From: Mediterraneibacter catenae
Lineage (GTDB): Bacteria; Bacillota; Clostridia; Lachnospirales; Lachnospiraceae
Direction of reading: 5' to 3'
DNA length: 64,000 nucleotides
Assembly: GCF_008691045.1 (NCBI RefSeq)
Contig: NZ_VMSO01000007.1
Coordinates: forward strand, 1 to 64,000
Within the stretch, counting starts at the first letter, position 1. Every line of letters begins with the position of its first letter. The position numbers and the translations under genes are program-made. This document shows positions 26,832 to 39,218 of this stretch, in pieces. Under the pieces are notes generated by a model, which did no database searches, was not told where the DNA came from, and was given only the letters and a program-made list of their open reading frames with translations.

Positions 26832-28723
26832 CACGCAGTAAATTTTTACCTGTAGACAGAAATGATATGATCGAGAGAGGATGGGACAGCGTAGACTTTG
26901 TCTATGTGATCGGAGACGCCTATGTAGATCATCCCTCTTTCGGACATGCCATCATAAGCCGGGTGCTGGAATCCCACGGATACCGTGTGGGGATCATTTC
27001 CCAGCCTGACTGGAAAGATAAAAAGAGCATACAAGTTTTCGGGGAACCGCGCTTAGGTTTCCTTGTTTCCGCCGGCAATATGGACTCTATGGTCAACCAT
27101 TACAGTGTATCGAAAAAACGCAGGAAGACTGATGCCTACACCCCCGGCGGTGAGATGGGAAAACGTCCGGACTATGCATGTGTAGTGTACGGCAATCTGA
27201 TCCGTCAGACATACAAGAAGACTCCCATCATCCTTGGCGGGATCGAGGCCAGTCTGCGAAGACTTGCGCACTATGATTACTGGTCAGACCGTCTGAAGCG
27301 GTCTGTTCTTCTGGACTCGGGAGCTGATATCATCTCATACGGGATGGGGGAACGCTCTATCGTCGAGATCGCTGATGCACTGGATGCAGGAATCCCTGTA
27401 AACGAGCTGACTTATATCGACGGTACGGTCGTGAAAATAAAAGACAGGGACCGGATCTATGACGCAGAATTTCTTCCGTCCTACGAAGATCTGAAAGCAG
27501 ACAAAAAGACTTATGCCGACAGTTTTTATACTCAGTATCTCAATACTGACGCTTTCAATGGAAAGCGTCTGGCGGAACCATACTCGGATCATCTCTTCGT
27601 CGTACAAAATCCGCCGTCAAAACCTTTGAGCGTATCCGAGATGGATGACGTCTATTCACTTCCCTACACGCGGACATACCATCCGTCCTATGAGGCAAAA
27701 GGCGGCATCCCGGCCATCTCAGAGATCCGGTTCAGCCTTATCAGCAACAGAGGATGCTTCGGCGGCTGCAGTTTCTGCGCCCTCACATTCCATCAGGGTA
27801 GGATCGTACAGGTGAGGAGCCATGAATCACTCCTGAAAGAGGCAGAGATCATCACAAAGGAGAAAGACTTCAAAGGTTATATCCACGATGTGGGAGGACC
27901 GACGGCAAATTTCCGCCATCCTTCGTGCAAAAAACAGACTGAACACGGCGTCTGCAGGAATCGGCAGTGCCTGTTCCCGAAGCCCTGCGGCAATCTAGAT
28001 GCCGATCACAGCGATTATGTGTCCCTTTTAAAGAAGCTGAGAGAACTGCCAGGCATAAAAAAAGTATTCATCCGTTCAGGTATCCGGTTCGACTATCTTC
28101 TCGCAGACAGGAAACGGGATTTCTTAAAGGAGCTCTGTCAGTATCATGTGAGCGGCCAGCTCAAAGTGGCGCCGGAACATGTGGCTCGTCCTGTCCTCTC
28201 CCTGATGGGAAAACCGGAACACAGCGTATATGAGAAATTTACGGAAGAGTTTTATAAAATGAATGCGAAGATCGGGAAAAAGCAGTATCTTGTTCCCTAT
28301 CTTATGTCTTCACATCCCGGTTCCACGTTAAAAGAAGCCGTAGAGCTTGCCGAGTACTGCAGGGATCTGGGGTACATGCCGGAACAGGTACAGGATTTCT
28401 ATCCTACGCCTTCCACCTTGTCCACCTGTATGTACTATACCGGGCTGGATCCCCGGACAGGCCAAAAGGTATATGTACCGAAGAATCCTCACGAGAAGGC
28501 GATGCAGAGAGCGCTCATCCAATACAGGAATCCCGAGCTCTACGACCTTGTCCTGGAAGCCTTAAAACGCGCAGGGCGCATGGATCTTGTAGGCTTTGGT
28601 CCGAAGTGCCTGATCCGCCCCAGACGGAGCAATGAAAAACAGTTTTCCGGGACACGGACAGATAAAGCTCCCCGTCCCCGGAAGAAAAAGAAAACGATAC
28701 GCAATATTCACAAAAAAAAGTGA
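26828..28723 (+). CDS. YgiQ family radical SAM protein
   Basis: A 631-aa radical S-adenosylmethionine protein of the YgiQ (UPF0313) family. The N-terminal part (FLPVDRNDMIERGWDSVDFV) is family-specific; the CxxxCxxC iron-sulfur motif is in GCFGGCSFCALT (about residue 315). The central barrel carries IRSGIRFDYLL and KVAPEHVARPVLSLMGKP. The C-terminus is very basic (RPRKKKKTIRNIHKKK), suggesting nucleic acid contact. It starts at GTG overlapping the HAD gene stop. The reaction is unknown for the family. Confidence 0.9.
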   Translation: MTRSKFLPVDRNDMIERGWDSVDFVYVIGDAYVDHPSFGHAIISRVLESHGYRVGIISQPDWKDKKSIQVFGEPRLGFLVSAGNMDSMVNHYSVSKKRRKTDAYTPGGEMGKRPDYACVVYGNLIRQTYKKTPIILGGIEASLRRLAHYDYWSDRLKRSVLLDSGADIISYGMGERSIVEIADALDAGIPVNELTYIDGTVVKIKDRDRIYDAEFLPSYEDLKADKKTYADSFYTQYLNTDAFNGKRLAEPYSDHLFVVQNPPSKPLSVSEMDDVYSLPYTRTYHPSYEAKGGIPAISEIRFSLISNRGCFGGCSFCALTFHQGRIVQVRSHESLLKEAEIITKEKDFKGYIHDVGGPTANFRHPSCKKQTEHGVCRNRQCLFPKPCGNLDADHSDYVSLLKKLRELPGIKKVFIRSGIRFDYLLADRKRDFLKELCQYHVSGQLKVAPEHVARPVLSLMGKPEHSVYEKFTEEFYKMNAKIGKKQYLVPYLMSSHPGSTLKEAVELAEYCRDLGYMPEQVQDFYPTPSTLSTCMYYTGLDPRTGQKVYVPKNPHEKAMQRALIQYRNPELYDLVLEALKRAGRMDLVGFGPKCLIRPRRSNEKQFSGTRTDKAPRPRKKKKTIRNIHKKK

Positions 28724-28732
28724 GGCGATCTT

Positions 28733-29494
28733 ATGAAAATAGCAGTTATAACAGGCGCATCCTCGGGGATGGGAAGAGAATTTGTCCGTCAGACCGGACA
28801 TTTTTACCGGAATCTGGATGAAATCTGGGTGATCGCCAGAAGGAAAGAGCGCCTGGAACGTCTCCGAAAAGAGAGCCGTGTGCCTCTTCGTATCTTTGAC
28901 GGAGATTTACTGAAAAAACAAGTATATAAACAGTATCACAGCGAACTTAAGGAATGGCAGCCTGAGGTGCGCATGCTTGTCAACGCGGCGGGTTTCGGAA
29001 GATCGGGAAAATTTGCCGATCTTGCTTCAGAAAGCAAGAAGCTCCAGACAGACATGGTGGATCTTAACTGCAGGGCGCTGACCCGCATGATCCAGATCAC
29101 ACTGCCGTATATGGGAAAAGGCGGACGGATCATCAATCTGGCGTCAGCCGCGGCGTTTTGCCCGCAGAACGGTTTTGCAGTATATGCCGCCACAAAAGCG
29201 TATGTCCTGAGTCTCTCAAGAGCGCTTTCCTCAGAGCTTCGCACCCGCGGCATCATTGTGACAGCTGTGTGCCCGGGACCGGTGGACACCGAATTTTTCC
29301 GCGTGAGCGGAGAGCTGACTGCACCGCTCAAAAAACTTACAATGGTCAAAGCGCCCGCAGTTGTCCGCAAAGCACTGAAAGACAGCCGGAAGAGGCGGGA
29401 AATCTCAGTGTACGGTGTTCCCATGAAAGCCGCGCACATCGGTGCGAAACTGCTGCCGCACCGGCTGATACTGCGGGCAGAGGAGATGTTATGA
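28733..29494 (+). CDS. Short-chain dehydrogenase/reductase
   Basis: A 253-aa NAD(P)-dependent oxidoreductase. Motifs are TGASSGMGREF (dinucleotide binding), NAAGFGRSG, the catalytic Ser in NLASAAAFCPQ and YAATKAY (Tyr and Lys). The GASSGMG form with a basic next strand (ARRKERLERL) suggests NADP preference. It overlaps the following pseudouridine synthase by 4 nt. The natural substrate cannot be named; the subgroup is often annotated as a general SDR. Confidence 0.9.
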   Translation: MKIAVITGASSGMGREFVRQTGHFYRNLDEIWVIARRKERLERLRKESRVPLRIFDGDLLKKQVYKQYHSELKEWQPEVRMLVNAAGFGRSGKFADLASESKKLQTDMVDLNCRALTRMIQITLPYMGKGGRIINLASAAAFCPQNGFAVYAATKAYVLSLSRALSSELRTRGIIVTAVCPGPVDTEFFRVSGELTAPLKKLTMVKAPAVVRKALKDSRKRREISVYGVPMKAAHIGAKLLPHRLILRAEEML

Positions 29495-30510
29495 GAGAGA
29501 TCATCATAAGGCCAAACGAAGCCGGCCAGAGACTGGATAAATTTCTTACAAAATATATGGCACTGGCGCCGAAAAGCTTTTTCTATAAGATGCTGCGCAA
29601 GAAAAACATCACGCTCAACGGCAGGAAAGCCACAGGACAGGAAAAGCTCTCCGTAAATGATACTGTTAAGCTGTTCCTTTCCGATGAGACGATCGATAAA
29701 TTTACAGAAAAGAAGACGCTGCATCAACCGGCGGACATACCGCCGGCAGACCTTGACATATTATATGAAGACAGGCATACAATCTTTATAAACAAGCCTG
29801 TGGGAATGCTCTCACAGAAAGCGGCAAAAAATGACATTTCTCTCGTAGAATATATGATAGGATACCTTCTTAAGAGCCGTCAGATCACGGAAGAAGAGCT
29901 CTGCACTTTCCATCCGTCTGTGTGCAACCGGCTGGACCGCAATACAAGCGGTATCGTAGCCGCCGGCAAGACACTGGCGGCACTGCAGGAATTAAGTGAA
30001 ATGTTCCGTGAGCGCAGTGTAAAAAAATATTATCTCTGTCTGGCGGCAGGAACTGTCACCCAGGGGGCGCACATCAGCGGATTCCTGACAAAAGATCCGC
30101 GTACAAACACTGTCATATACAGCACATCCATGACAAAGGGCGCCGCGCGGATCGAGACAGAATACCGTCCTCTCAGTACAGGAGACAATGTCACTCTGCT
30201 CGAAGTTCATCTCATCACGGGAAAAACACATCAGATCCGGGCACACCTGGCTTCGCAGGGACATCCCATCATCGGGGACTACAAATACGGAGACAGAAAG
30301 ATCAATGACAGATACCGCAGCGAATACGGGCTGACCTCACAGCTGCTGCATTCTGTCAGGCTCTGTATACCTGAATGTACCGGTACTCTTTCCGGCCTGT
30401 CGGGGAAAGTCTTAACCGCACCTCTGCCAGAGCTGTTCCAGAGGATATGTGAGGACAAGAAAATACAGAGGAGCTTTTTGAAATGGCCACATGGGGTTCA
30501 AGAGGACTAA
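29491..30510 (+). CDS. RluA family pseudouridine synthase (RluC/D-like)
   Basis: A 339-aa pseudouridine synthase. The ATG at 29491 overlaps the SDR stop; a longer frame upstream lies over the SDR gene and is rejected. The N-terminus is an S4 domain (RLDKFLTKYMALAPKSFFYK). The catalytic Asp is in CNRLDRNTSGIVAAGKTL, and the C-terminal part has ITGKTHQIRAHLASQGHPII. The target RNA position is not predictable from this. It overlaps recU by 28 nt and is distinct from the rluD gene at 54350. Confidence 0.92.
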   Translation: MREIIIRPNEAGQRLDKFLTKYMALAPKSFFYKMLRKKNITLNGRKATGQEKLSVNDTVKLFLSDETIDKFTEKKTLHQPADIPPADLDILYEDRHTIFINKPVGMLSQKAAKNDISLVEYMIGYLLKSRQITEEELCTFHPSVCNRLDRNTSGIVAAGKTLAALQELSEMFRERSVKKYYLCLAAGTVTQGAHISGFLTKDPRTNTVIYSTSMTKGAARIETEYRPLSTGDNVTLLEVHLITGKTHQIRAHLASQGHPIIGDYKYGDRKINDRYRSEYGLTSQLLHSVRLCIPECTGTLSGLSGKVLTAPLPELFQRICEDKKIQRSFLKWPHGVQED

Positions 30511-31019
30511 GAGGATCTACACTAGAGGAATTCATCAACCATACAAATGAACGTTATACGGAAATGGGGCTTGCACTGATCCAGAAAATTCCCACACCGA
30601 TCACACCGGTAAAGATCGATCAGGAGAGCAGGCATATCACATTGGCTTACTTTGACAAAATCAGTACTGTCGATTACATCGGAGCAGTCCAGGGGATTCC
30701 GGTCTGTTTTGACGCCAAGGAATGTAAAGCTGATACATTTCCTCTCCAGAACGTCCATGAACATCAGATGGATTTTATGGAGAAATTTGAAAAACAGAGC
30801 GGCGTCGCATTCCTTCTCATCTACTTCAGTACAAGGGATGAACTCTATTATATGCGCTATGAACAGATAAGAAAGTTCTGGGACCGTGGAAAAGCGGGCG
30901 GGCGTAAAAGTTTCCGGTACGAAGAACTGGAGCCGGGATGGTTTATGGAACTTAAACAGGGTTATTTCGTGCCGTATCTTGATATGATCCAGAAAGATCT
31001 GGACTGCCGTGATGAGTAG
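30483..31019 (+). CDS. recU: Holliday junction resolvase RecU
   Basis: RecU cleaves four-way DNA junctions after RuvAB branch migration. The 178-aa product has the family pattern: SRGLRGSTLEEFINHTNERY at the N-terminus, the catalytic cluster in STVDYIGAVQGIPVCFDAKE (Asp, and the Glu/Lys following) and the later FDAKECKADTFPLQN and VHEHQMDFM. It starts inside the last codons of the pseudouridine synthase (28-nt overlap). In most Firmicutes recU precedes a PBP gene (ponA); that pairing is absent here. With ruvAB and recG in the same window the recombination set is well represented. Confidence 0.95.
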   Translation: MATWGSRGLRGSTLEEFINHTNERYTEMGLALIQKIPTPITPVKIDQESRHITLAYFDKISTVDYIGAVQGIPVCFDAKECKADTFPLQNVHEHQMDFMEKFEKQSGVAFLLIYFSTRDELYYMRYEQIRKFWDRGKAGGRKSFRYEELEPGWFMELKQGYFVPYLDMIQKDLDCRDE

Positions 31020-31035
31020 AATATGCTTTCAGGGA

Positions 31036-31064
31036 TTGACAGAACTCCGCAAAATCCGTATAAT
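31036..31064 (+). promoter_or_regulatory. Consensus promoter of the his operon
   Basis: TTGACA and TATAAT are separated by 17 bp, an exact sigma-A consensus. No T-box or attenuator fits into the short leader before hisZ. Confidence 0.85.
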
Positions 31065-31113
31065 TACATAGGAATTTAACGTATTAGCACATTAAAGTGA
31101 AAGAGGAGAGCAT

Positions 31114-32352
31114 ATGGAACAGAAACTTCACACCCCGGAAGGCGTCCGGGATATTTACAACAAAGAATGCGAAACCAAACTTGCACTTCAGAAAAAGTTG
31201 AATACCGTACTCCATCTGTACGGTTACAAGGATATACAGACGCCCACATTTGAATACTATGATGTGTTCCGTGAGGAGATCGGTTCCACATCAACTCAGG
31301 AGCTTTACAAATTCTTCGACAGAGAGGGGAATATCCTTGCTCTCAGACCGGATATCACTCCGTCTGTCGCGCGCGCAGCGGCCACACTGTTTGAGAATGA
31401 AGACTTCCCCATCCGACTCTGCTATTCGGGAAATACATTTATCAATCATTCCAGCTATCAGGGCCGTTTAAAAGAGAATACACAGCTCGGAGCAGAGCTT
31501 ATCGGACTGGATGCCGTCGAGGCGGACGCTGAAATGATCGCCATGGTGGTAGACGGACTGAAGAAGACAGGATTAAAAGAATTTCAGGTCAGTATCGGAC
31601 ATGTTGATTTTATAAGCGGGCTTATGAACGCGGCTGACCTGCAGGAGGAAGAGAGCCGTGAAGTACGCACGCTCATCACAAACCGGAATTTCTTCGGCGT
31701 TGAAGAGCTCCTTGACAGTAAAAATGTAAAAGAAAGTGTAAAAGATGCTTTCCGTATCCTTCCGGAACTTGTCGGCGGACCTGAAGTACTCGAAGCAGCG
31801 CTCAAAGTAGCACCGGATCTGAACGCCCGTCTGGGAGTATCCAGACTACAGCAGATCTATCGCCTGCTCAAACTTTACGGTGCGGAAGACCATGTGACAT
31901 TCGATTTGAGCATGAGCGGAAGCTACGGATACTATACCGGCATTATATTCCGTGCCTATACATACGGTACGGGCGATGCGGTCGTTCGCGGCGGACGATA
32001 CGACCATCTGCTCGAAAAATTCGGCAAGAGCACACCTTCCATCGGTTTCGCCGTTATTCTCGATGAACTGATGAACGCTCTGAACCGCCAGAAGATTACT
32101 GTGGATACAGTCCATCAGAACCTGATCGTATATACCGAACAGACAGAGAAACGTGCCATCCCGCTCGCCTGCAGTTTCCGTGAAAAGGGCCGGAACATTG
32201 AGCTGATCAAACGGGAACCGGAGGAGGAGAGAGAAGTCTACGAGGCGTATGCCCGCCGTATGGGTACTTCCGTTCTGCTCTATCTCAGAGATGATGAGAA
32301 GATCGAGATGGTCAATCTTATGACAGGCGAAGAAAAGATCGCAGATCTGTAA
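31114..32352 (+). CDS. hisZ: ATP phosphoribosyltransferase regulatory subunit HisZ
   Basis: HisZ is a histidyl-tRNA synthetase-like protein that activates the short form of HisG and mediates histidine feedback. The 412-aa product starts with HTPEGVRDIYNKECETK and keeps the class II synthetase motifs 1-3 (FFDREGNILALRPDITPSVA, and GGRYDHLLEKFGKSTPSIGF). The anticodon-binding domain is reduced, as in other HisZ. It is the first gene of the his operon and is followed after 26 nt by hisG. Confidence 0.95.
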   Translation: MEQKLHTPEGVRDIYNKECETKLALQKKLNTVLHLYGYKDIQTPTFEYYDVFREEIGSTSTQELYKFFDREGNILALRPDITPSVARAAATLFENEDFPIRLCYSGNTFINHSSYQGRLKENTQLGAELIGLDAVEADAEMIAMVVDGLKKTGLKEFQVSIGHVDFISGLMNAADLQEEESREVRTLITNRNFFGVEELLDSKNVKESVKDAFRILPELVGGPEVLEAALKVAPDLNARLGVSRLQQIYRLLKLYGAEDHVTFDLSMSGSYGYYTGIIFRAYTYGTGDAVVRGGRYDHLLEKFGKSTPSIGFAVILDELMNALNRQKITVDTVHQNLIVYTEQTEKRAIPLACSFREKGRNIELIKREPEEEREVYEAYARRMGTSVLLYLRDDEKIEMVNLMTGEEKIADL

Positions 32353-32378
32353 TAGCAGGATTTAAAGGAGCATGACTT

Positions 32379-33026
32379 ATGAGATATCTGACATTCGCCC
32401 TGACAAAAGGGCGCCTGGCAAACAAAACACTGGAGATGCTGGAGAAACTTGGCATAACCTGTGACGAGATGAAAGACAAAGATTCCAGGAAACTGATCTT
32501 TACAAATGAAGAACTGAAACTGAAATTCTTCCTGGCAAAAGGACCGGATGTCCCGACTTATGTTGAGTACGGTGCAGCTGATATCGGCGTGGTCGGCAAG
32601 GATACGATCGTAGAAGAGGGGAGAAAAGTACATGAGGTGCTTGATCTCGGATTCGGGAAATGCCGGATGTGCGTCTGCGGCTATGAGAGTGCGGCAGAGC
32701 TTCTCGGGCACCACGAACTGATCCGTGTCGCCACTAAGTACCCGAAGATCGCAAAAGACTATTTTTACAATAAAAAGCATCAGACTGTGGAAATCATCAA
32801 AATGAACGGTTCCATCGAGCTTGCCCCGATCGTAGGCTTATCCGAAGTGATCGTGGATATAGTAGAAACCGGTTCAACTCTGAAAGAAAACGGGCTTGTC
32901 GTACTCGAGGAAGTCTGCCCGCTCTCAGCCCGTATGATCGTCAATCCGGTCAGCATGCGTATGGAAAACGACAGGATAAAGAAGCTTATCACAGACTTAA
33001 GAGCACTGCTCAGAGAAGATGTTTAA
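32379..33026 (+). CDS. hisG: ATP phosphoribosyltransferase HisG, short form
   Basis: HisG starts histidine synthesis by joining ATP and PRPP. The 215-aa length marks the short HisG_S form, which lacks the C-terminal regulatory domain and needs HisZ, encoded just upstream. It has [16 protein letters not shown] at the N-terminus, the PRPP-binding [15 protein letters not shown] and the [15 protein letters not shown] motif. The start has an AAGGAG ribosome site. It ends 17 nt before hisD. Confidence 0.97.
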
Positions 33027-33043
33027 AGTACGGGAGGAATATT

Positions 33044-34354
33044 ATGCGAATCGAAAAACTGGACCAGAATACAAAAAAGAGCCTGCTGGAAACACTTCTG
33101 AAGCGCAGTCCCAACAGCTATGGAAAATACGAGGAAAGTGTCCGCGAAATCCTGGATACCGTAAAAGATAAGAGAGATCAGGCTCTCTTTGAATATACAG
33201 AAAAGTTTGACGGCGCCCATATCAATGCCGACAATATCCTTGTCACGGAAGAAGAGATCAGAGAGGCCTATGAGAATGTAGATCCTGAACTGATCGATAT
33301 TATAAGAAAAGCGCTCAAAAATATTGAGTCCTATCACGCAAAGCAGATGCAGTACAGCTGGTTTGACAGTAAACCGGACGGAACGATCCTCGGTCAGAAG
33401 GTGACGGCTCTGGAGCGTGTCGGCGTCTATGTGCCGGGAGGTAAAGCTGCCTATCCGTCATCCGTGCTCATGAATATCATGCCGGCCAAAGTTGCAGGCG
33501 TGGAGCAGATCATCATGGTCACTCCGCCCGGAAAGGACGGAAAAGTAACTCCTACGACTCTTGTTGCGGCAAATGAAGCCGGTGCGGACCGCATTTACAA
33601 GGTAGGCGGAGCTCAGGCGATCGCAGCGCTTGCCTACGGGACAGAGAGCATCCCGAAGGTGGATAAGATCGTAGGACCGGGAAACATCTATGTAGCGCTC
33701 GCAAAAAAGGCCGTGTACGGACATGTGAGTATCGACTCCATCGCAGGGCCCAGCGAGATCCTCGTACTTGCGGATGAGACGGCAAATCCGAGATACGTAG
33801 CAGCAGACCTTCTCTCTCAGGCAGAACATGATGAACTTGCAAGCGCGATCCTTGTGACGACAAGCGAAAAACTCGCCCATGAAGTATCGGACTGGACAGA
33901 TCGGTTTATCCGTGAGCTTTCACGGGGAGAGATCATTCAGAAGTCGCTGGACAATTATGGACATATCCTCATTGCCGACACGCTGGACGACGCCATCGAT
34001 GCTGCAAATGAGATTGCTTCAGAGCATATGGAAATCGTGACTGCCAATCCCTTCGAAGTAATGACTAAGATCCGCAACGCAGGCGCTATCTTCATCGGAG
34101 AGTATTCAAGCGAACCGCTGGGCGATTATTTTGCCGGCCCGAACCATGTGCTTCCTACAAATGGAACAGCCAAGTTCTTCTCGCCGCTCTCCGTGGACGA
34201 TTTCATCAAAAAATCCAGCATTATCTCATATTCCAGGGATGCACTGGAGAAGATACACACAGATATCGAAAAATTTGCCGAGGCGGAGCATCTGACAGCA
34301 CACGCCAATTCGATCAGAGTACGTTTCGACGGAAAAGATTTTGATGAAAAATAA
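33044..34354 (+). CDS. hisD: Histidinol dehydrogenase
   Basis: HisD carries out the final two oxidations, L-histidinol to L-histidine, with NAD and zinc. The 436-aa protein has GVYVPGGKAAYPSSVLMN, the family signature VDKIVGPGNIYVALAKKAV, IDSIAGPSEILVLAD and the zinc/catalytic region LLSQAEHDELASAILV, followed by SSEPLGDYFAGPNHVLPT. Its length is typical. It is preceded by hisG and followed by hisB in the same operon. Confidence 0.98.
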   Translation: MRIEKLDQNTKKSLLETLLKRSPNSYGKYEESVREILDTVKDKRDQALFEYTEKFDGAHINADNILVTEEEIREAYENVDPELIDIIRKALKNIESYHAKQMQYSWFDSKPDGTILGQKVTALERVGVYVPGGKAAYPSSVLMNIMPAKVAGVEQIIMVTPPGKDGKVTPTTLVAANEAGADRIYKVGGAQAIAALAYGTESIPKVDKIVGPGNIYVALAKKAVYGHVSIDSIAGPSEILVLADETANPRYVAADLLSQAEHDELASAILVTTSEKLAHEVSDWTDRFIRELSRGEIIQKSLDNYGHILIADTLDDAIDAANEIASEHMEIVTANPFEVMTKIRNAGAIFIGEYSSEPLGDYFAGPNHVLPTNGTAKFFSPLSVDDFIKKSSIISYSRDALEKIHTDIEKFAEAEHLTAHANSIRVRFDGKDFDEK

Positions 34355-34383
34355 CAGACGGAGATTAATAAAGGAGGACGATC

Positions 34384-34974
34384 ATGGAACAGAGAATCGG
34401 AAGCTGTACCAGGAAAACAAAAGAAACTGATATCTCCCTGTCCATCAATCTGGACGGCCGGGGAAAGAACCGGATCGATACCGGAATCCCGTTCTTTGAC
34501 CATATGCTGGACGGATTTGCCCGCCACGGCCTCTTTGATCTCGATGTAAAGGTGAACGGAGATCTCGATGTCGACAGTCATCACACGATCGAGGATACAG
34601 GTATTGTGCTCGGACAGGCCATCGCTGAAGCGCTCGGAGACAAGGCAGGGATCAAAAGGTACGGTTACTTCATCCTCCCCATGGATGAGGTCCTTGCACT
34701 CTCGGCAGTCGATCTGTCGGGCCGCCCGTACTTAAAATATGACGCAGAGTTTACCGTACCCCGGCTCGGCACAATGGATACTGAGATGGTCCGGGAATTT
34801 TTCTATGCTGTCTCATACAGCGCAGCTATGAATCTGCATCTGAAGATCATGGAACCGGGCAACAACCACCATATGGCGGAAGCTCTGTTCAAAGCATTCG
34901 GAAAAGCGCTTGACATGGCTGTTTCAGAAGAACCGAGAGTACAGGAAGTCTGGTCGACTAAAGGCACCCTTTGA
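34384..34974 (+). CDS. hisB: Imidazoleglycerol-phosphate dehydratase
   Basis: HisB dehydrates imidazoleglycerol phosphate to imidazoleacetol phosphate. The 196-aa monofunctional form (no phosphatase domain, as in Firmicutes) has the manganese-binding repeats GIPFFDHMLDGFARHG, DVDSHHTIEDTGIVLGQA, and the later AMNLHLKIMEPGNNHHMAEA. GGAGGACGATC precedes the ATG. The next gene starts 76 nt downstream, still in the same operon. Confidence 0.97.
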   Translation: MEQRIGSCTRKTKETDISLSINLDGRGKNRIDTGIPFFDHMLDGFARHGLFDLDVKVNGDLDVDSHHTIEDTGIVLGQAIAEALGDKAGIKRYGYFILPMDEVLALSAVDLSGRPYLKYDAEFTVPRLGTMDTEMVREFFYAVSYSAAMNLHLKIMEPGNNHHMAEALFKAFGKALDMAVSEEPRVQEVWSTKGTL

Positions 34975-35050
34975 TCTGATATCATGATATTCCGGGCCGG
35001 GCATAATTTATATAAACTGACAAGAACTGATAAAAGGAGAACTGATATAC

Positions 35051-36334
35051 ATGAGCTATAAAAGACTGACTCCATGCATTTTCATCGATGGAGGCAAGGC
35101 AGTGCAGTGGTTTGATGACAGGACACTGCTGTCTGACGATGTCGTCGCCCTTGCAAAACAGTACTGTGACAGGGGAGCTGATGAGCTGATCGTATTTGAC
35201 CTGTCCACATCGGACGAAGAGCATGACGAAGCGATAGACCTGATCAAGAAAATAAACCGGGTGATCAGTATTCCAATGATCGCCGGAGGAAATATACGAC
35301 GCGCCGAGGATGTCAAGAAGATCCTCTATGCAGGGGCAAAACGCGCTGTCCTGAACTTTTCAAAATCTCTTTCCATAGACCTCATCGAAGAGGTATCCAA
35401 ACGTTTCGGAAAAGAGAGGATCGCTGTTTCCCTGAATGACTTTGACGCACTGTTCAAAATGCAGCATCTGATCGAAGAGTACAGCACAGAGATTGTGTTC
35501 ATGCACCGTCTCGATCTGAACTCTGTTATGAATATCACGAAGCTTCCCTGCGTCGTACTTACAGACACAATGGAGCAGAGCGAGATCCTGCGGATTTTAA
35601 AATGCGACGGTATCAAAGGCGTATCCGGCCTCTTTATCAGCAGGCTGGACATGGATTTCAAGGAATTCAAGGAAATCTGTGCAGATGCCGGTATCAAGAT
35701 GACATCTTTCGAGAGCATTCTGGACTTCTCGGAATTTAAGCTGAATTCCGACGGACTCATTCCTGTCATCGTACAGGACTACAAGACAAATGAAGTCCTC
35801 ATGATGGCTTACATGAATGAGGAAGCATTTGACCACACGGTAAAAACCGGACGCATGACATACTACAGCAGAAGCAGACAGTGCCAGTGGGTAAAGGGAG
35901 AGACCTCCGGTCATTTCCAGTATGTGAAATCACTTTCTATCGACTGTGATAAAGATACGCTCCTGGCAAAAGTAGAGCAGATCGGTGCTGCGTGTCATAC
36001 GGGCAACCGTTCCTGCTTCTATACTACGATCGTCGGGGCTGACTACGACGCCAAGAATCCGCTCCAGGTATTCGAGTCTGTCTATAATACGATCGTGGAT
36101 CGCAGAGAGCACCCGAAAGAAGGATCTTATACAAACTATCTCTTTGAGAAGGGCATCGACAAGATCTTAAAGAAAGTAGGAGAGGAAGCGACCGAGATTG
36201 TTATCGCAGCCAAGAATCCGAATCCGGAGGAGATTAAATATGAAATCTCCGACTTCCTGTATCATGCCATGGTACTCATGGTAGAGCGGGGCGTCACCTG
36301 GGAGGATATCACAAACGAACTGGCTGACCGATAA
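35051..36334 (+). CDS. hisIE: HisIE with N-terminal degenerate HisF-like domain
   Basis: A 427-aa fusion. Residues about 230-335 are HisI, phosphoribosyl-AMP cyclohydrolase, with [13 protein letters not shown], the zinc region [17 protein letters not shown] and [10 protein letters not shown]. Residues about 340-427 are HisE, phosphoribosyl-ATP pyrophosphatase, with [15 protein letters not shown]. The first 225 residues align by eye with HisF: HisF ACLDVKDGRV corresponds to [20 protein letters not shown] to [10 protein letters not shown] and VVAIDAK to AVSLNDF. Both catalytic aspartates of HisF (the Asp in CLDV and in AIDA) are replaced, by Phe and Asn, and the phosphate-binding DGT loop is missing. 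This part is therefore probably not a working cyclase. AAAGGAG precedes the ATG. Confidence 0.9.
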
Positions 36335-36366
36335 AGCTGTCTGATCACACAGCAGTTCCATATATC

Positions 36367-36385
36367 AGAACAGAAGAACTGTTCT
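36367..36385 (+). other. Small perfect hairpin after the his operon
   Basis: AGAACAG and CTGTTCT form a 7-bp stem with a 5-nt loop 33 nt after the hisIE stop. There is no T-run. Confidence 0.5.
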
Positions 36386-36396
36386 AAGAAAGTATT

Positions 36397-36433
36397 CAGG
36401 GACATAGATTATGATAAATGATCTATGTCCCTG
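36397..36433 (+). terminator. Strong hairpin before the small membrane protein
   Basis: CAGGGACATAGAT (36397-36409) and ATCTATGTCCCTG (36421-36433) form a perfect 13-bp stem with an 11-nt loop. It is followed by AGGTTTATT rather than a T-run and lies just before the next ribosome site, so it may be a his-operon end or a leader element. Confidence 0.5.
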
Positions 36434-36442
36434 AGGTTTATT

Positions 36443-36763
36443 ATGAATGATTCAGAAATGCGCCGGAGAGAACTGCTGAGACAGACGCGGAAGCTTTATG
36501 ACGATAGAAGAGACATCCCTGCTGTCCATCCGAGATACGGGAGGATCTATCATGATCTCTACAAAAACGGGGATGAAGAGCAGGAAACACCCGGAGGTAC
36601 ATTTTACATACGGCTTGTGATCGGCATCCTGTGCTTTGTCTGCTTTGTCTATATGGATCAGAGTAAGGCGGAGATTGCGCAGGTAAACAGCACATCAATC
36701 GTAAATCAGATTGAGAAAGAGATGGATACCAATGCGATTATAGAAGCATGGAAGGCACTGTAA
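36443..36763 (+). CDS. Small single-pass membrane protein, unknown function
   Basis: A 106-aa protein with a charged cytoplasmic-type N-terminus (RRRELLRQTRKLYDDRRD, residues 6-23), one membrane segment near residues 60-74 (RLVIGILCFVCFVYM), and a short outer tail. The ATG at 36443 follows a GAGG site; an earlier in-frame start lies in the hairpin. I do not recognise it. It lies between the his operon and a decayed glucosidase gene, apart from both. One membrane anchor with a short exposed C-terminus would suit a regulator or signalling partner, but nothing more can be said. Confidence 0.72.
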   Translation: MNDSEMRRRELLRQTRKLYDDRRDIPAVHPRYGRIYHDLYKNGDEEQETPGGTFYIRLVIGILCFVCFVYMDQSKAEIAQVNSTSIVNQIEKEMDTNAIIEAWKAL

Positions 36764-36772
36764 TTTTCCGCC

Positions 36773-37432
36773 GTGATACTGATTGACTTCTATCTGCGCT
36801 TTGCAAAGGTTCTCTTTGAACGTTACAAAGGCAGAGTGAAATACTGGCTGACCTTCAACGAGATCAATATGCTCACCGAGCCGTTCGGCGCTGTATTCTG
36901 CGCCGGAATGCTCGATGAAGCAGACAACAACGAGGAGACACGCTATCAGGCAATGCATCATCAGCTTGTGGCAAGTGCCCTTGCAGTTAGAATGGCTCAT
37001 GAGATAGATCCCGAAAATAAACTCGGCTGCATGCTCGCATATCATAACGGCTATCCCTACACCTGCCATCCGAAAGATGTATTCTTTGCGCAGCAGTATG
37101 GACAGATCCCTATCATGATCGTTGAGAATGGTCTGGGCGCAGTTGATGAAATCACTGAAGACGACCGGATTCATGACGATTACCGTATCGACTATATGCG
37201 TCAGCATATTGTAGAAATGAAGGAAGCACTGTGCGACGGAGTCGATCTGATCGGATATACCTGTTGGGGATGCACGGATGTTGTCAGTGCTTCGACCGGG
37301 GAAGTGAAAAAACGCTATGGTCTCATCTTCGTTGACAAATACGACAATGGCACAGGGGATATGTCCCGTAAGCGGAAAGATTCTTTCTACTGGTATAAGA
37401 AAGTAATAGAAAGCAACGGAGAAATCCTGTAA
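36773..37432 (+). pseudogene. GH1 6-phospho-beta-glucosidase remnant
   Basis: The 219-aa open frame covers only parts of a GH1 enzyme, whose members have about 475 aa. The acid/base region is intact ([12 protein letters not shown], near residue 30), and the nucleophile region ([13 protein letters not shown]) and C-terminus ([16 protein letters not shown]) are present. Roughly the first 140 residues are missing. A further internal block of about 130-150 residues between AQQYGQ and IPIMIVENG is gone with the frame kept. No ribosome site precedes the GTG. Both catalytic glutamates survive but the barrel cannot be complete, so it is a decayed gene. Confidence 0.85.
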
Positions 37433-37448
37433 AATAGAAATAGGGCAG

Positions 37449-37490
37449 CAAACCGCCGGACTTAATGTCAAGCTCGGCGGTTTGTTCTAT
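37449..37490 (+). terminator. Terminator before the alpha-glucosidase gene
   Basis: CAAACCGCCG (37449-37458) and CGGCGGTTTG (37475-37484) form a perfect 10-bp stem followed by TTCTAT. Confidence 0.75.
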
Positions 37491-37535
37491 ATCACTTAAT
37501 ATTTCTTTAAGACTAAGAAAGGAATGGAAGAATCA

Positions 37536-39218
37536 ATGGACAGGAAATGGTGGAAGGAAAGTGTTGTATATCAGATTTATCCGAGGAGTTTTTACGACAG
37601 CAACGGGGACGGAATCGGCGATCTGAACGGTATCACGGAAAAGCTGGATTATCTGAAAGAACTGGGCGTTGATGTAATCTGGCTCTCGCCGGTCTACCAG
37701 TCGCCCAATGACGACAATGGTTATGATATCAGTGACTACCGTGCGATCATGAAAGAGTTCGGAACGATGGAAGATTATGACAGAATGCTCGACGAGGCGC
37801 ATAAGAGAGGCATCCGCATCGTTATGGACCTTGTGGTAAATCATACTTCTGACGAGCATAAATGGTTTATAGAGAGCCGCAAATCAAAAGATAATCCGTA
37901 CAGGGATTACTATATCTGGCGTCCAGCCAAAGACGGAAAGGAGCCGAACAACTGGGGATCCTGCTTCTCCGGTTCCGCGTGGGAATACGACAGTACAACT
38001 GATATGTATTTTCTCCATCTGTTCTCCAGAAAGCAGCCGGATCTGAACTGGGATAACCCAAAGGTGAGAAGAGAAGTATACGACATGATGAACTGGTGGC
38101 TGGACAAAGGAGTGGACGGTTTCCGCATGGATGTGATCAGCCTTATTTCCAAAGATCAGACATTCCCGGACGGCGAACCTGGCATCAACGGCTATGCAAG
38201 CTTCAATGAGCCTGCCAACGGTCCTCATGTCCATGAATATCTTCAGGAAATGAGAAGAGAAGTTCTGGACGGAAGAGAAACTCTTACCGTAGGTGAGTGT
38301 TCCGGCGTTACACTTGATGAAGCTAAAAAATACGCACGGAGCGATGGGAAAGAATTAAATATGGTATTCCAGTTTGAACACATGGATGTAGACGCGGATG
38401 GCACAAACAAGTGGGCGGATAAAAAAATGGATCTGCGGGATCTGAAAAAGATTCTGACAAAATGGCAGAAAGGTCTTGATACCATTGCATGGAACAGCCT
38501 GTTCTGGGAAAATCATGATCAGCCCCGCTCAGTATCCCGATTCGGGAATGACGGAGAATACCGTGAAATGTCCGCCAAAATGCTTGCCACCTGCCTTCAC
38601 ATGATGCAGGGCACGCCCTATATCTATCAGGGAGAGGAACTGGGCATGACTAATGTGCCATTTAAAGACATCTCAGACTTCCGTGATCTTGACAGTATCA
38701 ACGCATGGCACGAACTGGTTGGACAGGGTGTATTCACTGAGGATGAAATGATGAAATACCTGCGGTACAAAAGCCGCGATAATGCCCGCACGCCGTTTCA
38801 GTGGGACGATACAGAAAATGCAGGTTTTACGACAGGCTCGCCGTGGATCATGGTTAATCCGAACTACAAGGAAATCAATGCCAAAGATCAGTTAGAAAGA
38901 GAAGATTCTGTCTTCCGTTATTACCAGAAGCTGATCCGCCTCAGAAAAGAGCATGAGATCATCGTGTACGGAAGTTATGACCTTGTTCTCCCCGAAGACA
39001 GAGAGCTATATGTATATACCCGGACACTCAAAAATGAAAAACTGCTTATTATATGCAATTTCTACGGAAATACACGGATATTTGCACTGCCTGGGGGGTG
39101 GACAAAAAAGACCTCAAAACTTCTGATCGGAAATTATGGGGATCTTTTGTATGCGAGAGACAATAGAAATACTGTGTTCATAAGACCATATGAGGCATTA
39201 GTGCTCAAATCTCTGTAA
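37536..39218 (+). CDS. malL: GH13 alpha-glucosidase / oligo-1,6-glucosidase
   Basis: A 560-aa cytoplasmic GH13 enzyme that releases glucose from isomalto- or malto-oligosaccharides or sucrose-like substrates. The ATG at 37536 is chosen because the earlier ATG at 37524 directly abuts the ribosome site. Conserved regions I-IV are MDLVVNHTSDEH, GFRMDVISLISK (nucleophile Asp), TVGECSGVT (Glu acid/base) and FWENHDQPR (stabiliser Asp). GECSGV replaces the more usual GE.P or GEM.G of region III. It follows the decayed GH1 gene, suggesting a former saccharide-use cluster. The terminator upstream separates it from that gene. Confidence 0.93.
   Translation: MDRKWWKESVVYQIYPRSFYDSNGDGIGDLNGITEKLDYLKELGVDVIWLSPVYQSPNDDNGYDISDYRAIMKEFGTMEDYDRMLDEAHKRGIRIVMDLVVNHTSDEHKWFIESRKSKDNPYRDYYIWRPAKDGKEPNNWGSCFSGSAWEYDSTTDMYFLHLFSRKQPDLNWDNPKVRREVYDMMNWWLDKGVDGFRMDVISLISKDQTFPDGEPGINGYASFNEPANGPHVHEYLQEMRREVLDGRETLTVGECSGVTLDEAKKYARSDGKELNMVFQFEHMDVDADGTNKWADKKMDLRDLKKILTKWQKGLDTIAWNSLFWENHDQPRSVSRFGNDGEYREMSAKMLATCLHMMQGTPYIYQGEELGMTNVPFKDISDFRDLDSINAWHELVGQGVFTEDEMMKYLRYKSRDNARTPFQWDDTENAGFTTGSPWIMVNPNYKEINAKDQLEREDSVFRYYQKLIRLRKEHEIIVYGSYDLVLPEDRELYVYTRTLKNEKLLIICNFYGNTRIFALPGGWTKKTSKLLIGNYGDLLYARDNRNTVFIRPYEALVLKSL

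Follow-up and report, generated by a model that had tools for sequence, protein, structure and literature searches.

The HisIE protein of Mediterraneibacter catenae carries at its N terminus a barrel domain, here called psF, that most likely derives from a copy of HisF and is very probably non-catalytic. With confidence slightly short of even, we regard psF as a pseudoenzyme domain that arose from the HisF copy of the histidine operon and has persisted as a non-catalytic partner of HisE. The comparative evidence, on our best reading, makes its purpose depend on the presence of HisE.

Architecture and locus of the fusion gene

The window, by which we mean the whole analysed stretch of 64,000 nucleotides, holds the fusion gene at 35051..36334 on the forward strand as an unbroken frame of 427 amino acids, in which Pfam recognizes His_biosynth, PRA-CH and PRA-PH in that order. 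psF, a probably HisF-derived (beta/alpha)8 barrel domain that has lost the catalytic Asp pair, takes up residues 1-225 (35051..35725). The phosphoribosyl-AMP cyclohydrolase domain HisI follows at residues 229-328 (35735..36034) and the phosphoribosyl-ATP pyrophosphohydrolase domain HisE at residues 338-427 (36062..36331). The gene is the final member of a series that runs on the same strand through hisZ (31114..32352), hisG (32379..33026, 215 amino acids), hisD (33044..34354) and hisB (34384..34974, 196 amino acids, dehydratase only). A promoter-like site with 12 of 12 consensus positions lies upstream of hisZ (31036..31064, forward strand), and a terminator-like stem of 18 pairs lies directly 3' of the fusion gene (36395..36435, forward strand). 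Both are pattern matches; the promoter-like pattern occurs at 4 sites in the region against 7.1 expected from shuffles, and the terminator-like pattern at 6 against 4.8. No Rfam family matched positions 28000-38500 at the gathering score. Positions 36773-37432 hold a 219-amino-acid remnant of a 6-phospho-beta-glucosidase (GH1), which is probably a pseudogene with an internal deletion because two stretches of it match profiles about 475 positions long.

Loss of catalytic residues in psF

A sequence-only reading of this DNA had taken residues 1-225 for a HisF-like barrel in which the Asp of the CLDV motif is Phe, the Asp of AIDA is Asn and the DGT loop is missing, and had judged the barrel probably non-catalytic. 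Our alignment agrees. The residues concerned are D11 and D130, described as general acid and general base of HisF in passages of PMC11350729. The window protein has Phe11 (codon 35081..35083, forward strand) and Asn129 (codon 35435..35437, forward strand) in their places; acidic residues at both positions, which would have refuted the sequence-only reading, are thus absent. At the second phosphate site it has a gap at the DGT loop and T-D at the GG. Both Asp residues are present in 16 of 16 HisF rows, and across 112 psF domains D11 is kept in 4, D130 in 28 and both in 2. Since both catalytic Asp residues and the DGT loop are lost, the barrel is very probably non-catalytic. The NCBIfam HisF profile gives 78.1 bits for the whole protein and 80.1 bits for the domain, below the cut-off of 294.55, and the HisA profile TIGR00007 gives 59.1 bits, below its cut-off of 228.95. 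psF also differs from canonical HisF in its shortened second half, in its fusion to HisIE and in the absence of an adjacent hisH. The structure predicted for the window protein has a complete HisF-type (beta/alpha)8 barrel in the psF region (pTM 0.56).

The other two domains are intact, as had been claimed from their motifs. The HisI metal ligands of the D-C-D-x-D and CH...C motifs are present (D298, C299, D300 and D302; C315, H316 and C322; ligand list taken from passages of PMC8102479), as are the acidic metal-binding residues of HisE, assigned by motif (E378, E379, E382, E398 and D401). The HisIE profile NF002747 scores 270.8 bits, above its curated cut-off of 187.

It is very improbable that psF is still catalytic, whether its pocket has been remodelled for a new reaction or it retains residual isomerase or cyclase activity. 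Asp at the D130 column in 28 of the 112 domains, and at both columns in 2, would fit such activity, and in the window protein Asp130 adjoins the lost catalytic position. However, the D11 column is Phe or Tyr in 66 of the 112, and in our reading the 40 most conserved columns include no newly acquired group of polar residues at the pocket end of the strands. The second phosphate site has been lost, as has the second half-barrel in a few lineages; these two losses also argue against the earlier suggestion that the barrel channels phosphoribosyl intermediates.

The source genome has no need of psF as a HisF or HisA, since both are found elsewhere in it. A second contig (L001) carries an intact hisH-hisF pair, in which HisF scores 387 bits (cut-off 294.55) and HisH 242 (cut-off 105.4); a third carries a eukaryote-type HisA with 332 bits (cut-off 229.3). 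We therefore rejected psF as the HisF or the HisA of this genome. The eukaryote-type HisA (TIGR02129; G000:C1:48872-49636; L174, L194) occurs in 104 of 150 Lachnospiraceae genomes. Other genera of the family keep a canonical hisA in the operon, directly before psF-HisIE.

Distribution and origin of psF

The fusion is not a single odd protein. Among 150 Lachnospiraceae genomes, one per genus, 132 match the window protein at E <=1e-40, some of them over HisI or HisIE alone. The HisI locus was examined in 134 genomes, the partial-match genomes G120, G197 and G207 falling outside this survey, and psF-HisIE stands there in 110. The remaining loci comprise one psF-HisI without HisE (G103), one contig that ends inside HisI (G083), three HisA-HisI fusions, 14 separate HisI genes without HisE, one of which has no his neighbours (G148), and five canonical hisH-A-F-I-E arrangements without psF. 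All 36 same-genus genomes match the window protein fully or partially. A frameshift or assembly artefact was rejected on the strength of these 110 loci and 36 matches. The set of 112 psF domains used throughout leaves out 29 same-genus loci (L009-L037) and the three HisA-HisI fusions. One genome outside the family, G039, also has psF. Among genomes of the order, 29 of the 33 from the family have the exact signature of helix alpha3 of psF and none of the 213 others does; this search misses variants such as that of G039.

The position of psF in the operon points to its source. The order is hisB-(hisA)-psF.IE in the family and hisB-H-A-F-IE in relatives, so that psF occupies the hisF slot of the other families of the order and of the five canonical genomes. 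A psF profile matches the genome's own HisF at E 3.8e-23 and a canonical HisA at E 5.5e-16; in PDB it matches HisF-LUCA with 130 bits and the best HisA with 66.7. D44 and K207 of psF are HisF-type residues. In a tree with 32 of the 112 domains, psF forms one clade (support 100/96), and the family's working HisF clusters with HisF from other families of the order; four of its HisF rows (L071, L170-L172) come from Lachnospiraceae genomes with the canonical operon. This clade, and the grouping of the working HisF elsewhere, indicate at the sequence level that psF arose once. The clade lies between HisF and HisA on long branches, and the tree alone gives it no placement inside HisF. It is the profile scores, the HisF-type residues and the operon position that uphold the HisF origin claimed earlier and make a HisF copy in the operon the most likely source.

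In a midpoint-rooted drawing of the tree, the psF group of L118 (G191), L108 (G130) and L110 (G100) branches first. The psF domains of L118 and L108 match HisF better than that of the window does, and L118 has Asp at both catalytic columns. It is possible from their sequences that this group is an intermediate.

Selection on psF

psF had a median dN/dS of 0.030 among 30 congeneric genes, its second half taken alone 0.094, HisI 0.048 and HisE 0.022; these values come from 11-43 of 435 pairs per region as dS was outside 0.1-1.2 in most. All 30 genes have 427 codons and the same start. By these measures psF is under purifying selection.

The most conserved positions lie mostly off the pocket. Six of them, R84, E86, D87, K89, K90 and Y93, are in helix alpha3 within a conserved patch at residues 84-96 (35300..35338, forward strand). 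The second conserved stretch is the alpha4-beta5 loop at residues 118-122 (R-F-G-K-E; 35402..35416, forward strand), with R118-F119-G120 and an acid at 122. This placement was read from secondary structure in the model with pTM 0.56. The residues particular to psF are K89 (111 of the 112 domains), Y93 (110), K90 (107), R118 (100) and R84 (95). In the loop, F119 and G120 are each kept in 111 and E or D at 122 in 103. E86, D87, F119 and G120 are common to psF and HisF, wholly or partly; the alpha3 patch is not conserved in 16 HisF or 32 HisA rows.

The same patch survives in shortened forms. Eight psF domains have fewer than 205 residues (135-199); all of them keep RFG and a fused HisE, and seven keep the alpha3 motif, which is partial in G039. 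In G155 and G125 HisI follows RFG after just 23 and 26 residues, so these two have lost the second half-barrel, while alpha3, RFG and HisE are still present.

psF might be a functionless relic of the fusion, tolerated because it is harmless to HisIE. Consistent with this, no other part of the protein changes as fast across genera: beyond close relatives, most psF domains are 23-52% identical to that of the window and most HisI domains 63-86%, and psF has shrunk in several lineages. We consider a relic improbable, however, in view of the low dN/dS, the identical length and start of the 30 congeneric genes, the near-invariance of the patch in 112 genomes and the coupling with HisE described below.

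psF could also be a ligand sensor, in which a ligand such as PRFAR, ProFAR, AICAR or IGP would occupy the phosphate site of the first half and the domain would exert allosteric control over HisI or HisE. The model of the window protein shows a complete barrel, and D50, S52, G80, N81 and N102 of the old active-site rim are invariant in an alignment of 49 sequences. Across the 112 domains, however, D51 is kept in 87 and N103 in 63, and G82 is Asn in 60 (HisF numbering); the rim varies far more across the family than the alpha3 patch. A closed barrel pocket is also impossible in the forms without the second half-barrel. A sensor is thus unlikely as the general role of psF, and a possible one, judging by sequence, in lineages that keep the first phosphate half-site.

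Association of psF with HisE

In 17 family genomes HisI is present and a genome-wide search did not find HisE (G062, G068, G070, G074, G077, G086, G101, G103, G113, G118, G122, G131, G138, G146, G162, G172 and G178; loci L154-L157, L166-L169, L173 and L290-L297). In 16 of them HisI either has other his genes as neighbours or forms a fusion with HisA or psF; in G062 (L167) the stretch examined around HisI holds no further his gene. Of the 150 family genomes, 118 gave HisE over the cut-off in this search, as did 13 of the 14 controls. The control that it missed, Bacillus subtilis, was missed by the HisI search as well, so a given absence may be a gap in the genome data. No HisE frame was seen near HisI in the HisE-less loci examined.

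There is no psF before HisI in 16 of these 17 genomes, and a search for free-standing psF, made with PF00977 at E 1e-15, gives at most two matches in each of the 16. As psF precedes HisI and HisE follows it, no single deletion could take out both and spare HisI. We followed the two domains on a tree of his proteins, a quick tree and not a species tree, with 131 rows (16 HisE-less, 5 from other families); it leaves out G148, G083 and rows of 250 residues or fewer, which include G062 and G169. The best tree has 13 changes of HisE, which we read as losses. On starred branches, 11 independent pairs differ in HisE; psF differs in the same direction in 10 of them and not at all in one (medians over 200 pairings, a few of which give 9 or one opposite pair; sign test p 0.00195, range 0.00195-0.0117).

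The patch and HisE also tend to change together. In G103, the sole psF found without HisE, six of ten patch positions have changed, and this domain is the only violator at K89, R118 and F119. Five fusions have altered HisE acidic residues (L050 in G173, L129 in G189, L134 in G151, L107 in G199 and L153 in G209), HisE domains that are perhaps decaying in place. The patch is broken in three of the five against 7 of 106 with intact HisE, with a Fisher p of 0.005 that ignores relatedness and applies to positions picked after conservation had been viewed. The two that keep the patch include G209, where a frame break possibly reflects an error in the sequence. The lower the identity of HisE, the more the patch tends to have changed (Spearman -0.30, p 0.0014).

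In the HisE-less genomes, HisI shares 68-83% identity with its closest psF-type counterpart and 56-68% with its closest canonical one. This closeness to the psF type fits trimming of the fusion in these loci rather than import from outside the group. The joint loss of psF and HisE could also come from replacement of the whole gene. Three genera have a direct HisA-HisI fusion and neither psF nor HisE (L154:2986-4035, L155:3742-4842 and L156:3718-4848), and these genera lie on separate branches of the his tree.

It is quite unlikely that psF serves as a docking platform for HisH, HisF, HisA, HisG-HisZ or HisB in an early histidine enzyme complex. The alpha-beta loop side of HisF is its HisH-binding side, and conserved residues in these loops (D44, P75, G95-A96 and F119-G120) are common to psF and HisF. 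P75, G95 and F119-G120 are also common to HisA, however, and may be structural, and psF has been dropped in HisE-less genomes that keep hisZ, G, D, B and I, with HisF elsewhere. The sequence-only reading had offered a scaffold or a regulator; either may stand, but the comparative evidence narrows the role to something tied to the HisE domain.

A partnership with HisE would account for these patterns as follows, in the order that we infer. A HisF copy would have stood between hisA and hisIE in the ancestral operon and been fused in frame to HisIE in a lineage with a working hisH-hisF pair elsewhere. It would then have lost the cyclase chemistry and been retained as a non-catalytic partner of HisE, at the opposite end of the chain. 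The patch may dock onto HisE of its own chain or of the partner chain in the HisIE dimer, and such docking would support or regulate the activity or assembly of HisE. Plant HisE is a dimer with swapped chains according to passages of PMC8102479, and this makes a docking or assembly role for the patch natural. On the other side, HisE occurs without psF in the five canonical-operon genomes of the family and in relatives, so HisE does not in general require psF.

A fuller scenario is possible, with the balance against it. Here a retired HisF would act as the partner of HisE through the alpha3/RFG patch, and another PR-ATP pyrophosphohydrolase would have displaced HisE at least about 11 times, psF being discarded nearly every time HisE was lost and some psF domains having become little more than the first half-barrel. 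HisE-less Lachnospiraceae must in any case hydrolyse PR-ATP with another enzyme, if they make histidine. MazG was rejected as a general substitute, since 9 of the 17 genomes give no PF03819 match at E 0.01.

Relation to known systems

The bifunctional HisIE enzyme (NF002747; PDB 6j2l, 7bgm) has the same order of HisI and HisE and the same motifs, whereas the window protein has a 225-residue barrel in front. The HisA-HisI proteins of G068, G077 and G113 (L155, L156 and L154) likewise place a HisA/HisF-fold barrel before HisI; unlike psF, this barrel groups with canonical HisA, HisE is absent and psF is gone.

The sequence-only reading thought this use of a dead HisF domain possibly undescribed, which in our searches holds for the dead barrel but not for the order of the parts. 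A clause in PMC9413887, which treats his operons including those of Lachnospiraceae genera, names hisF-hisI-hisE among fusions, with the same order of three parts; the passages concerned say nothing of lost catalytic residues, distribution or a link with HisE. The string hisF-hisI-hisE also occurs in PMC3828012. The split Roseburia operon, in passages of PMC7478625, has hisG, Z, D, B and hisEI together, hisF-hisH apart and hisA apart; the gene is named hisEI there, and these passages do not mention an N-terminal HisF-like domain. Five his fusions listed in a part of PMC1963479 do not include the psF-HisIE type. A literature search, to which most subscription papers were outside, found no description of a dead HisF barrel fused to HisIE.

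psF would be a repeated natural case of an enzyme turned into a partner domain within its own pathway. Its forms are graded from full barrel through near half-barrel to loss, and the hypothesis can be tested residue by residue. HisF is the textbook model for barrels built from half-barrels, and evolution seems to have cut this barrel back in psF. That HisE is repeatedly absent from his operons which otherwise look complete suggests a missing enzyme in common gut bacteria. In a gut metabolic reconstruction, the portion of PMC9026213 with the pathway gene list gives HisE in brackets, which we read as optional.
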